Of a DNA stretch of 43,801 bases, positions 296 through 7,340 are shown one piece after another. Every line of letters begins with the position of its first letter. The stretch's first letter is position 1. The notes below the pieces were generated by a model that was given only the letters and a program-made list of their open reading frames with translations, ran no database searches and was not told where the DNA came from. Both the position numbers and the translations under genes were made by a program. Source of the stretch: a virus; the IMG/VR virus record IMGVR_UViG_3300030106_005416, positions 412 to 44,212 of that record. One strand, given 5' to 3'.

Positions 296-699
296 ACCCT
301 GACAGCTTTTCACTACACTACCTTCGGTAGTAGTAGTGGAAGTAAAAGCTGCTAACACGCTGAGAGATAACAAGTTATCTCCGTAGGTTAGCCATCGTGA
401 AGGGCTTCAGTTTGCCACTTGAATGTCACCCCTGAAAGGGGTGTTGTGGCTCGACTAAGAGTTGAGGTGAGGGATTGTCCCACCCTGACAGACTGCACGT
501 CCCATCCTGCGGTCTCATGCGGTGGTAGAGCTAAACCTACCTAACTGACTGATAGTCAGTAGGTAGCAAAAGCTGGAATCTACAGCGCAACTATCGAAGA
601 TAGTTGGGGTGGGGGGTCTGCTAAGTCGTTTCGGCACGTAGTGCCGACCGCTCTATGATACATATAATCCCCACGGTATATAGAGCTCCCCTCTTTTTT
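296..699 (+). ncRNA. Candidate large structured noncoding RNA
   Basis: No reading frame of useful length covers this stretch, yet it is dense in hairpins. Stems are: 304-310/344-350 with inner 311-316/333-338; 364-370/375-381 (CAAG loop); 414-418/446-450 enclosing 427-432/438-443; 450-456/460-466; 537-542 plus 544-550/554-560 plus 561-566 (13 bp, one bulged A); 589-595/599-605; and 631-637/641-647. A long-range helix CCCACCC (479-485) with GGGTGGG (607-613) closes a multibranched domain. CAGAC (489-493) with GTCTG (616-620) would cross it as a pseudoknot. ACCCTGACAG occurs twice (296-305 and 482-491). G-U pairs in the 450-466 stem favour the + strand. It does not show the conserved blocks I know for tmRNA, RNase P or group I introns. 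A GOLLD- or ROOL-type ornate RNA is possible but unproven. Confidence 0.6.
650..699 (+). terminator. Possible terminator of the structured RNA
   Basis: GCTCTAT (650-656) pairs with ATAGAGC (680-686). A six-T run follows at 694-699 after a 7-nt gap. The long loop and the gap make it weaker than the UUCG terminators later in the window. Confidence 0.35.
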
Positions 700-5171: not shown

Positions 5172-5408
5172 ATGGAAGGACTTATTAGAAAAATTATTAT
5201 CGGAAGAGATCCGAAAGATGCCATGGCGTACTATATCGGCATGAGAGCTGGTTCTGGCCAGGTGTCTGCAATAATTCTTGATGAAGAACATCTATATAAG
5301 CACGGAAAGAAAAGATATCTTGTATATTTGATGCAAGAAAACTCTCAGGTTTTATGGAAGTGTGTGGATGATATGCCGTGCATTATTGAATATGATTGCA
5401 ACTTTTGA
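5172..5408 (+). CDS. 78-aa hypothetical protein
   Basis: Starts one base after the stop of the preceding gene and ends in TGATG overlap with the next (5406-5410), so it is translated as part of that operon. The product alternates short beta-like segments (GLIRKIIIGRDP, VSAIILDE, KRYLVYLM) with charged loops and has two Cys near the C-terminus (about residues 64 and 76). I recognise no family or motif. A TATATTTG at 5323-5330 inside the gene is probably chance. Confidence 0.6.
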   Translation: MEGLIRKIIIGRDPKDAMAYYIGMRAGSGQVSAIILDEEHLYKHGKKRYLVYLMQENSQVLWKCVDDMPCIIEYDCNF

Positions 5409-5782
5409 TGGCTACAACAAATCTTTATACTGGAGGTAACGAGTTTAAGCTTCCTAATGGGAAGTTTTACTCTGGTCCATATCATGTTCACCCATCTAAA
5501 GGTGCTATGGTAGGTGCTTTCCACACTTCAAGAGCTCATGCTAGGCTCACACCAGCAAACGAGCAAGTAGATTTAAAGCTTCAAAAAATTATTCTTCCTA
5601 AGAGTCAGTTTGAACTTTTATCTTCTAATGGTCAGGCTTCACAAATCACTCCAGCCAGAAGACCATCTAGGCCATCTCCATCTCCATCTGCACCTGCACG
5701 AAGACCTAGAAGACAGCCTAGACCTACACCCCCTCCAGCAAGTAACGTGCAAAGACGCACTACTGGATACTCCTCATATTAA
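5408..5782 (+). CDS. Virion-associated-type protein with YHVHPSKG motif and Pro/Arg-rich tail
   Basis: The ATG at 5408, overlapping the upstream stop, gives 124 aa. Residues 5-50 contain LYTGGNEFKLPNGKFYSGPY and then HVHPSKGAMVGAFHTSRAHA. I recall this pattern (a short Tyr/Gly region followed by YH[VI]HP-x-KG-x-MVGA) from small proteins of other marine viruses, without a known function. The C-terminal 45 residues are low-complexity Pro/Arg/Ser (RRPSRPSPSPSAPARRPRRQ) and probably disordered. A structural role is likely but not shown by the sequence. Confidence 0.65.
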   Translation: MATTNLYTGGNEFKLPNGKFYSGPYHVHPSKGAMVGAFHTSRAHARLTPANEQVDLKLQKIILPKSQFELLSSNGQASQITPARRPSRPSPSPSAPARRPRRQPRPTPPPASNVQRRTTGYSSY

Positions 5783-5786
5783 TTAA

Positions 5787-6398
5787 ATGGAAACTATTAA
5801 TTTATTTGTTGTTGAGCTAGAAAAAAAGATCAACGACACAATCACCACGGATGGTGGTTTAGAACTTTTTATCGACACGAGATTTGAAGGTAGTGAGTTC
5901 AAACACAGGATTACTGAAGGCCCTATAGTGTGTTCCCCATTGAGACACAACACTGGTGCCAAGAAAGGAGATACTCTGTATTTTCATCACTTAGTTGTGT
6001 TAAATGAGGGTCAAGGTTTAACTGGTCACAAAAACCACTACATGGTTCAGTATGACCCAAACCACACAATTAACAACCAGGCAATAGCATATAAGAGTGC
6101 AAAAAGTGGACACATATATAGTCTCGGCGGTTGGGCTCTTCTCTCGCCTGTTGAAGAAGGTCCTGATCCTGGGGAACAATCTGACCTTATCGAAGTGGTC
6201 AAGCTTACCGACACTCCTGTTCGCAAAGCTCGCGTTGCTTTTAACGCTCCTTGGATTGAAGAGCTTGGGCTCTCTGTTGGCGATGTGGTGGGCATTAAAA
6301 AGAACAGAGATTACGAGCTGACCATTGACGGCAATAAGTACTTTAGAGTTAGAGCTGAAGACATCCTTTATGTCGAAGAAGAAGTTTACAACGATTGA
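5787..6398 (+). CDS. Tandem GroES-like co-chaperonin
   Basis: The 203-aa product reads as two GroES-type beta-barrels in one chain. Lobe 1 (about 4-112) contains GGLELFIDT (23-31), GPIVCSP (45-51) and GAKKGDTLYFHH (57-68). Lobe 2 (about 113-198) begins GGWALLSPVEE and contains GLSVGDVVGIKKNRDYEL (161-178) and the GroES-like end YFRVRAEDILYVEE (185-198). Host GroES is a single barrel of about 97 aa. Phage examples such as T4 gp31 replace it to help GroEL fold the major capsid protein. A segment at about 124-146 (GPDPGEQSDLIEVVKLTDTP) is in the place of lobe 2's mobile loop. It starts just after the 5408 gene. Function in capsid folding with host GroEL is inferred. Confidence 0.75.
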   Translation: METINLFVVELEKKINDTITTDGGLELFIDTRFEGSEFKHRITEGPIVCSPLRHNTGAKKGDTLYFHHLVVLNEGQGLTGHKNHYMVQYDPNHTINNQAIAYKSAKSGHIYSLGGWALLSPVEEGPDPGEQSDLIEVVKLTDTPVRKARVAFNAPWIEELGLSVGDVVGIKKNRDYELTIDGNKYFRVRAEDILYVEEEVYND

Positions 6399-6660
6399 TG
6401 CCGCCGAGCGCCTTATGAAGTCGATGGAGGTTGCTATAGACAACATGATCGACGAAGTAAAAAAACCTGTTGATCCTGAGATCAACGGGAGCGCTCGAAA
6501 AGCAGAGCTTCAGTCTATTAAGCAGACTGCTACAGATTGTAAGGAACTGATCGTTGAAAGACAGCGATTAGAACAAATGATAAAAGACCTACAAACAAAT
6601 GGGGGAATCGAAGAAGCCAAAGACTACAGCGGAGGTTTTGCTGAGAGATACTCTAAATGA
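6370..6660 (+). CDS. Helical small protein before tRNAs; possible small terminase
   Basis: The start MSKKKFTTID at 6370 overlaps the end of the co-chaperonin gene by 29 bases; an upstream in-frame start would add 15 residues of low similarity. The 96-aa protein is almost all helical and charged, with a coiled-coil-like middle (KAELQSIKQTATDCKELIVE and on to MIKDLQ). It precedes the two tRNAs and the large terminase, the usual place of a small terminase. No helix-turn-helix is obvious, so the call remains open. A scaffolding or regulatory role cannot be excluded. Confidence 0.65.
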   Translation: MSKKKFTTIDAAERLMKSMEVAIDNMIDEVKKPVDPEINGSARKAELQSIKQTATDCKELIVERQRLEQMIKDLQTNGGIEEAKDYSGGFAERYSK

Positions 6661-6742
6661 TTGGAAAGAAATTGTGTACCAAAAAAACAAGATAGATTTT
6701 AAGTTCTGGGACGAATCCTGGAACAAGGAGTTTGAGGACTGA
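6599..6742 (+). CDS. Short overlapping ORF, 47 aa
   Basis: ATG at 6599 opens a frame inside the 3' end of the preceding gene and continues to TGA 6740-6742. It encodes MGESKKPKTTAEVLLRDTLN, then DWKEIVYQKNKIDF and a Trp-rich end (KFWDESWNKEFED). The mixed charge with evenly spaced aromatics looks like a real peptide, and it fills the gap before the tRNA genes. No family is recognised. Confidence 0.5.
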   Translation: MGESKKPKTTAEVLLRDTLNDWKEIVYQKNKIDFKFWDESWNKEFED

Positions 6743-6791
6743 GTTGTTGGTTTTCGTCAGGCGACCCTCTACGTATTACGGGTTTATCAAC

Positions 6792-6865
6792 TGGGGCGTA
6801 GTTCAGTTGGTTAGAGCGTCTGTCTTATACACAGGAAGTCGTGGGTTCAAGTCCCACCGCCCCAA
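6792..6865 (+). tRNA. tRNA-Ile (anticodon UAU)
   Basis: A 74-nt cloverleaf. Acceptor TGGGGCG pairs fully with CGCCCCA, with discriminator A65 of the 68xx block. The D stem is GTTC/GAGC, the anticodon stem TCTGT/ACAGG, and the loop C-T-TAT-A-C gives anticodon UAU (codon AUA). The T stem GTGGG/CCCAC encloses TTCAAGT. CCA is not encoded (CAA follows). Most bacteria read AUA with a lysidine-modified CAU anticodon, so a UAU isoleucine tRNA is unusual. Confidence 0.9.
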
Positions 6866-6873
6866 CAATTTAT

Positions 6874-6881
6874 TATATTTA
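6874..6881 (+). promoter_or_regulatory. TATATTTA -7 box, 4 nt before ATG, just after tRNA-Ile
   Basis: TATATTTAC starts 8 nt after the tRNA discriminator base and leaves 4 nt before ATG 6886, predicting a leaderless transcript that would continue through tRNA-Arg. Confidence 0.5.
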
Positions 6882-6885
6882 CAAC

Positions 6886-7113
6886 ATGAAAGTCAAAAAG
6901 CGAGACTACAAGAAGGAATATGCTAAGTATGGCAAAGGCGGAAAAGCCAAGCGATACAGAGCCGACTTGACTCGCATCAACCGCCGCAAAGGAAATGTCG
7001 GCAATGGTGATGGTCTCGACGAAGCCCACGTAGGGTCATCTGACAAAACACGACTTCAGCCTCAATCTAAAAACAGAGCTAACAACAGACCTAGGCTTAG
7101 ACGCAGTAGGTAA
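6886..7113 (+). CDS. Short Lys/Arg-rich protein (MKVKKRD opening)
   Basis: The start chosen is ATG 6886, placed by the promoter box at 6874; longer versions would read through the tRNA. The 75-aa product opens MKVKKRD, identical to the protein at 933. It continues with KYGKGGKAKRYRADLTRINR and a basic end (NNRPRLRRSR). The GKGGK element recurs in other proteins here (15013, 32788). It lies between the two tRNA genes. No function is recognised; nucleic-acid binding or packaging into the virion is a guess from charge. Confidence 0.75.
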   Translation: MKVKKRDYKKEYAKYGKGGKAKRYRADLTRINRRKGNVGNGDGLDEAHVGSSDKTRLQPQSKNRANNRPRLRRSR

Positions 7114-7120
7114 TCTGCAT

Positions 7121-7194
7121 GCGCTCGTAGCTCAGTTGGATAGAGCATCTGCCTTCTAAGCAGACGGTCACAGGTTCGAATCCTGTCGGGCGTA
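7121..7194 (+). tRNA. tRNA-Arg (anticodon UCU)
   Basis: A 74-nt cloverleaf. Acceptor GCGCTCG pairs with CGGGCGT, including G-U pairs at the first and fifth positions. The D stem is GCTC/GAGC, the anticodon stem TCTGC/GCAGA, and the loop CT-TCT-AA gives anticodon UCU (codon AGA). The T arm is ACAGG-TTCGAAT-CCTGT with discriminator A. CCA is not encoded. AGA is visibly common in the phage genes. Confidence 0.92.
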
Positions 7195-7208
7195 CTAAAT
7201 TTAATTCA

Positions 7209-7340
7209 ATGGCAAAGATACAAGTATCCACTTACAAGAAGAAGCGTGTTCGCCGAAAGGGTGTTCACGCTAAGACTAAGCAGTCTAAAAACAAGCAATC
7301 AAGAAATTACAAGAAGCCTTATGCTTCACAAGGTCGATAA
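7209..7340 (+). CDS. 43-aa very basic protein
   Basis: The ATG at 7209 encodes MAKIQVSTYKKKRVRRKGVH followed by a Lys/Asn/Ser-rich end (KNYKKP-type: RNYKKPYASQGR), stopping at 7338-7340, three bases before the next start. Almost half the residues are Lys or Arg, with no acidic residue. It resembles short proteins I recall just upstream of terminase genes in other marine phages, with no known role. Codons favour CGT and AAG, as in the terminase start. RNA or DNA binding is likely from composition alone. Confidence 0.7.
   Translation: MAKIQVSTYKKKRVRRKGVHAKTKQSKNKQSRNYKKPYASQGR

Follow-up and report, generated by a model that had tools for sequence, protein, structure and literature searches.

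Hairpins closed by C(GNA)G loops are exceptionally stable as small DNA structures (PMC4686876), and such loops are required for supercoil-driven extrusion at the promoters of phage N4 (PMC4496689). The early-promoter DNA hairpins of N4 are the nearest physical precedent for the viral locus described here, a dense island of short palindromes, with which they share C(GNA)G-stabilised small stems at phage early genes. N4 has three promoters, which a virion RNA polymerase recognises, whereas the island comprises a dozen or more hairpins that differ in their stems and lie in part within a gene. The target hairpin or cruciform of diversity-generating retroelements (PMC3240598) is likewise a DNA-level hairpin in which the structure of the stem counts, its sequence does not, and the loop sequence is constrained, but each target has a single hairpin with a 4-nt GRNA loop rather than an array. 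For nematomorph mitochondria, coding palindromes have been described (PMC6649704), and their maintenance by template switching or arm conversion has been proposed. They resemble the island in being perfect, coding-overlapping inverted repeats that are almost devoid of mismatches; they reach 284 bp and are spread over the mitochondrial genes, whereas the island stems measure 7-8 bp, are confined to one locus and extend into non-coding DNA.

On the RNA side, the ornate RNAs GOLLD, ROOL and OLE (PMC12286853) are comparable as large folded elements of bacteria or phages. The island differs from them in being shorter, in forming a chain of hairpins without a conserved long-range fold, in being continuous with a coding gene and in having no Rfam match. 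In relatives, the early operon also contains hammerhead ribozymes (RAGATH-1, type II) farther downstream, whereas the intergenic element has no ribozyme core. No known RNA family or promoter system accounts for the island.

Position, extent and distribution of the hairpin island

The window, i.e., the whole stretch of 43,801 nt that was analysed, represents bases 412-44212 of a 54,616-base IMG/VR virus record (G000). At its left edge lies the start of a minus-strand early gene encoding a basic protein (start codon 239-237), of which positions 1-239 hold the 5' part and which continues leftward as far as about G000:182. Immediately outside the window, a stretch of 10 N (G000:402-411) interrupts the middle of this gene. 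The late operon is encoded on the plus strand from about position 933, with a terminase and a portal related to those of flavobacterial podophages. Positions 240-932 therefore separate two divergent operons, and the predicted gene-free stretch is indeed intergenic, between the minus-strand gene starting at 239 and the plus-strand gene at 933. Replication genes are found on the minus strand at the opposite end of the record, and the cumulative GC skew has no turn at the hairpin island and does not mark it as an origin. The window also carries two plus-strand tRNA genes, for Ile (anticodon TAT, 6792-6866) and Arg (TCT, 7121-7195).

The original prediction placed a highly folded candidate noncoding RNA, favoured on the plus strand, at 296-699. 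Its hairpins are present, at 317-331, 364-381, 427-443, 450-466, 544-560, 588-606 and 631-647, and folding of 241-720 yielded z = -6.65 for the plus and -7.28 for the minus strand. Counting perfect stems that have 7 bp or more and loops of 2-5 nt, against expectations from shuffles, we found 12 stems in 1-700 (0.16 expected), five in 296-699 (0.09) and six in the coding stretch 1-239 (0.08), while the remainder of the window outside 1-700 contained 0.28 per kb. A per-kilobase scan of G000, with loops of 3-5 nt and overlapping placements counted, gave 20 stem placements in the first kilobase and none or one in each other kilobase. The hairpins are genuine and far above chance expectation. Given the stem-dense first kilobase and the six perfect stems within the coding sequence, the feature does not begin at 296, and the predicted boundary fails: positions 296-699 make up the intergenic half of an island of about 1 kb that consists of the spacer and the neighbouring early gene. 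In this family of uncultured phages, the island lies between the early and the late genes and includes the whole first early gene.

Homologues of the basic-protein gene were recovered from viral contigs at 18, later 42, loci. The island occupies the identical position in the first 18 contigs with this gene, dense hairpins in both gene and spacer are found in nearly all of the 42, and three relatives of about 65 kb have a single island per genome. Among phages of the same terminase/portal family outside the clade, elemovirus and Cellulophaga phi38:1 and phi13:2 lack the island. The Manatee Spring phage has only a slight hairpin excess around 44-48 kb. The hairpin island is clade-specific. A blastn search of phage and plasmid collections revealed no relative of the element, an exact search with one 17-nt piece of it had no match, and an exact search with the conserved hairpin H5 (see below) returned mostly contigs already known. 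The adjacent gene of 95 amino acids proved to be the wrong anchor, as the contigs of its neighbours (L004-L083) are without the element.

Anatomy and conservation

The island is built from perfect Watson-Crick palindromes at fixed sites, with about 7 bp in the stem and 2-3 nt in the loop. Across ten close relatives, 36 of 104 pairs were changed on both sides, compared with 22.5 in shuffles, and none of 500 shuffles reached 36; the covariation score was 0.232 (shuffles, 0.106) and was abolished when the pairing partners were shifted by 1-3 columns. Within the gene, 19 sites form a perfect stem in at least eight of 37 genes, with a maximum of 36, and the stem sequences often differ. The stems thus persist at their sites although both of their arms have changed in sequence, and this holds for coding as well as non-coding DNA. 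The structure is therefore conserved and covarying, in partial support of the original prediction, and it also stays unclassified: at gathering thresholds, cmscan of the window against Rfam returned two tRNAs only, and a relaxed scan of 1-1300 gave matches at chance level only. The models for GOLLD, ROOL, OLE, tmRNA, RNase P and group I introns were thus not matched, and kinship with GOLLD or ROOL, named in the original prediction as the nearest known kind, was not found.

The six perfect hairpins of the coding sequence (30-46, 53-69, 84-100, 104-120, 134-152 and 158-177) have stems of 7-8 bp and loops of 3-4 nt, and between 13 and 36 of the 37 genes retain the homologous sites. Immediately before the early gene lies a long perfect leader hairpin on the minus strand, H0 (246-289; 16 bp, 12-nt loop). 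All 16 of its pairs are preserved in 10 relatives, five of the pairs with double changes, and its loop has a tandem GA when read on the minus strand. Further into the spacer, H1 (311-338; CACTAC / ACTACC ttc GGTAGT / GTAGTG) occupies a site at which 40 of the 41 sequences form a perfect stem, using 18 different stem sequences. H2 (351-392) encloses GAGATAAC aa GTTATCTC between GCTAAC and GTTAGC, and is present in 34 of 41 sequences with 10 different stems and with double changes. H3 (427-443; CACCCCT gaa AGGGGTG) occurs in 25 of 41 sequences (seven different stems), and H4 (450-466; CTCGACT aag AGTTGAG) is poorly conserved, with 60% of cells paired. H5 (537-566; CTACCT a ACTGACT gat AGTCAGT AGGTAG) is found in 32 of 41 sequences, frequently with GAA or GTA loops. 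At H6 (588-606; CAACTATC gaa GATAGTTG), 26 of 41 sequences form the hairpin from 13 different stems, 16 with a GAA loop, and six of eight pairs show double changes. H7 (631-647) reads TCGGCAC gta GTGCCGA, and in its region some other sequences form a different hairpin around GTTTCGG.

Long-range pairing fared less well. The predicted helix of 479-485 with 607-613 (CCCACCC/GGGTGGG) exists in the window but is poorly conserved, with 70% of cells paired in ten relatives; in the closest relatives it holds only with a 2-nt slip, and it is lost in a second, more distant group. The pseudoknot of 489-493 with 616-620 (CAGAC/GTCTG) can pair, although partially across the ten relatives (again 70% of cells). 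The 5' sides of both lie at 479-493 on the plus strand. Their 3' sides involve the conserved G-rich plus-strand tract GGGTGGGGGGTC (607-618), which is found in most sequences and comprises the 3' side of the helix and part of that of the pseudoknot (616-620). Two further elements, the direct repeat ACCCTGACAG (296-305 and 482-491) and the stem at 650-686, are present in the window and were set aside, as neither is kept in relatives. A candidate long-range helix, P1, pairs GGGATTGT (471-478) with ATAATCCC (664-671) and on the plus strand would contain a single invariant G-U; 98.8% of its cells are paired in 10 sequences and its outer GGG is lost in the second group. Since P1 hardly varies, its covariation is uninformative and was dropped as evidence.

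The main block conserved in sequence and lacking a conserved hairpin lies at the right end (661-699; TATAATCCCCAC...CTC...TTTTTT). It occurs in most of the 41 sequences, with short changes in a few, and possibly represents a promoter or a protein site, in either direction. In the second group (L089, L088, L094, L099, L097, L091 and L095), one additional hairpin lies upstream of the basic-protein gene. Its loop (GAGAGTC, GAGAAGTC) is complementary to the adjacent long hairpin (GACTCTC, GACTTCTC), and the two appear to covary (alignment columns 1-110); a kissing interaction or a switch is possible.

The early operon and its basic protein

The product of the early gene is rich in Lys, Arg and Ala and is predicted to be helical, with low overall confidence. 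It has no relative in Pfam, PHROGs or PDB and was absent from the GTDB genomes searched, and by these comparisons the protein is novel. Its C-terminus ends in an acidic DELPF/DGLPF-like tip, which we take to resemble the tip of SSB. A candidate phage SSB encoded at L085:11004-11306 ends in EDALPF, and the two kinds of tip suggest a common partner that reads an SSB-like tip. The same contig encodes, on the minus strand at 5180-7261 and near the replication genes, a protein of 693 amino acids with an apparent signal peptide and a HEMGH zinc-protease-like motif (TITHEMGHYCGLFH); this is possibly a secreted metalloprotease, the motif having been judged by eye only.

In relatives, 26 distinct hammerhead ribozymes, each with a complete core, are situated between early cistrons of this operon, downstream of the basic-protein gene (e.g., L086:5826-5890 and L093:6120-6175). 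Judged from their position, they would cut just before a shared leader, TCAAACTTCAA. One hammerhead scanned with Rfam scored 21.5 bits, below threshold, and the identification therefore rests on the core and the three helices; the hammerheads of this clade may be unannotated. The hammerhead core (CUGANGA...GAAA...NUH, three helices) is absent from the window both by Rfam and by core pattern.

Of the copies of the shared leader, 65 come after a long hairpin and 26 after a hammerhead, and RNA processing probably matters at these sites. The long hairpins that precede early cistrons are perfect over 12-16 bp, and their loops often fit CT-GA-AC-GTA-GT-GA-AG, with a tandem GA and a tiny inner stem (G001:38361-38403, G001:40334-40374, G003:1501-1543 and others). 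This family possibly represents an RNA-processing site or a hairpin promoter. H0, on the minus strand, is one of these leader hairpins and shares the architecture of those preceding other early cistrons in relatives.

DNA or RNA as the level of selection

If RNA folding were selected, stems containing G-U pairs should be in excess, and no such excess was measured. Perfect stems amount to 16.6 per kb in the gene, 8.1 in the 620 bases upstream and 0.30 in control stretches of the same contigs. Stems containing G-T (0.59, 0.39 and 0.52 per kb, respectively) and stems containing A-C (0.34, 0.23 and 0.45) are at background throughout. At broken coding sites, A-C cells (195) are not rarer than G-T cells (122), which indicates that the stems do not accommodate G-U to the degree expected of RNA pairing. 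The hammerheads of these phages, which act as RNA, are likewise poor in G-U (one fixed stem-I position in all 26 and two others in about 400 pairs), and the test therefore carries limited weight. Their stem-III loops are equally short (GAA, GTA, TTC and TT). This is serious counter-evidence, as Watson-Crick purity and loop shortness may be a general tendency of these genomes rather than a signature of DNA. E. coli rRNA was rejected as a G-U yardstick, having few short-loop stems above chance.

Folding energy and loops were compared between the strands. In the spacer, the shuffle-corrected energy of the plus minus that of the minus strand was -1.3 kcal/mol, with 22 of 41 sequences negative, and the coding sequence showed a slight bias towards the sense strand (24 of 32). 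Loops are mainly of 2-3 nt; GNA is among the leading triloop classes, and C-GAA-G is the commonest loop of all. GNA outnumbers TNC 190 to 31 in the gene sense, 69 to 27 on the plus strand of the spacer and 8 to 5 in controls; in the gene, this orientation could stem from Lys and Glu codons. The near-total Watson-Crick purity and the absent strand bias of the spacer would be unusual in RNA; together with the GNA loops, they fit DNA hairpins or maintenance acting on both strands. Like the promoter hairpins of N4, those of the island combine a short perfect stem with a C(GNA)G loop. No match to an N4-type virion RNA polymerase was detected in the two giant virion proteins, nor one to the T7-type RNA polymerase family PF00940, in a search whose control also failed to show.

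As the same signal is found in coding and non-coding DNA, DNA is the simplest common level, and we tentatively favour an array of DNA micro-hairpins between divergent operons, at somewhat less than an even chance. The conserved property would then be the capacity of the DNA to form small hairpins, and we infer that these extrude as cruciforms under the negative supercoiling between the divergent transcription units, or form on exposed single strands. Speculatively, the array might mark or open a region of early control or replication initiation for phage or host proteins; its partner could, at a guess, be the basic protein encoded within the island. In a stricter version, the spacer and the whole gene form a dedicated array in which selection acts on the Watson-Crick self-complementarity of the DNA itself, and the array serves the phage as an initiation platform that depends on supercoiling or single-stranded DNA; we give this version a smaller but real chance. 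To our knowledge, no such dedicated array has been described.

An RNA leader or a noncoding RNA, taken together, comes close to an even chance. Early transcription might start at about 660-700 and run left, with 300-660 as a long structured 5' leader that continues into the structured mRNA of the basic protein. The leader would be separated at H0, in the way that hammerheads and long hairpins separate later cistrons, and the basic protein may regulate its own expression by binding to the hairpins. Leader and first gene together match the extent of the island exactly, H0 and the other leader hairpins have the tandem GA in gene sense and precede TCAAACTTCAA, and the hairpin-free block at 661-699 sits where a promoter would be expected. 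However, no minus-strand promoter is recognisable, the G-U excess and a strand bias of folding energy in the spacer are missing, and both the GNA loops of the spacer and the invariant G-U in P1 favour the plus strand, so that we regard this leader as unlikely. These last two features speak instead for the original prediction of an ornate phage RNA, which would span about 400 nt (290-700) and be transcribed divergently from the early gene, as do the 36 double-changed pairs and the T-tract at 694-699. That proposal nevertheless leaves the equally dense hairpins of the adjacent gene unexplained, and in relatives the hairpins extend through this gene, at odds with a self-contained RNA. Furthermore, the T-tract has no hairpin terminator on the plus strand, the long-range elements named for it are weakly or not conserved, the stems are Watson-Crick only with no folding-energy bias in the intergenic part, and the argument that G-U pairs favour the plus strand depends on few pairs. 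We consider such an RNA quite improbable. Least probable, and to our mind very unlikely, is maintenance without function, in which template switching during replication or arm conversion at quasi-palindromes keeps the stems perfect. Single-transition intermediates are almost wholly absent, as this would predict, and a similar pattern of perfect or absent repeats has been discussed for nematomorphs (PMC6649704), but neither the restriction to one kilobase nor the GNA bias and the fixed sites across diverged phages (in up to 36 of 37 genes) would be explained.

Should the hairpins of the locus act at the RNA level, its early transcript would be exceptionally densely structured, and the operon employs hammerhead ribozymes as well. 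If the favoured DNA-level reading is correct, the gene for a protein and the spacer upstream of it have been jointly shaped into an array of tiny DNA hairpins. The island would then be a strong natural case of DNA rather than RNA secondary structure constraining a coding sequence, and would offer a simple system for studying what such hairpins do.
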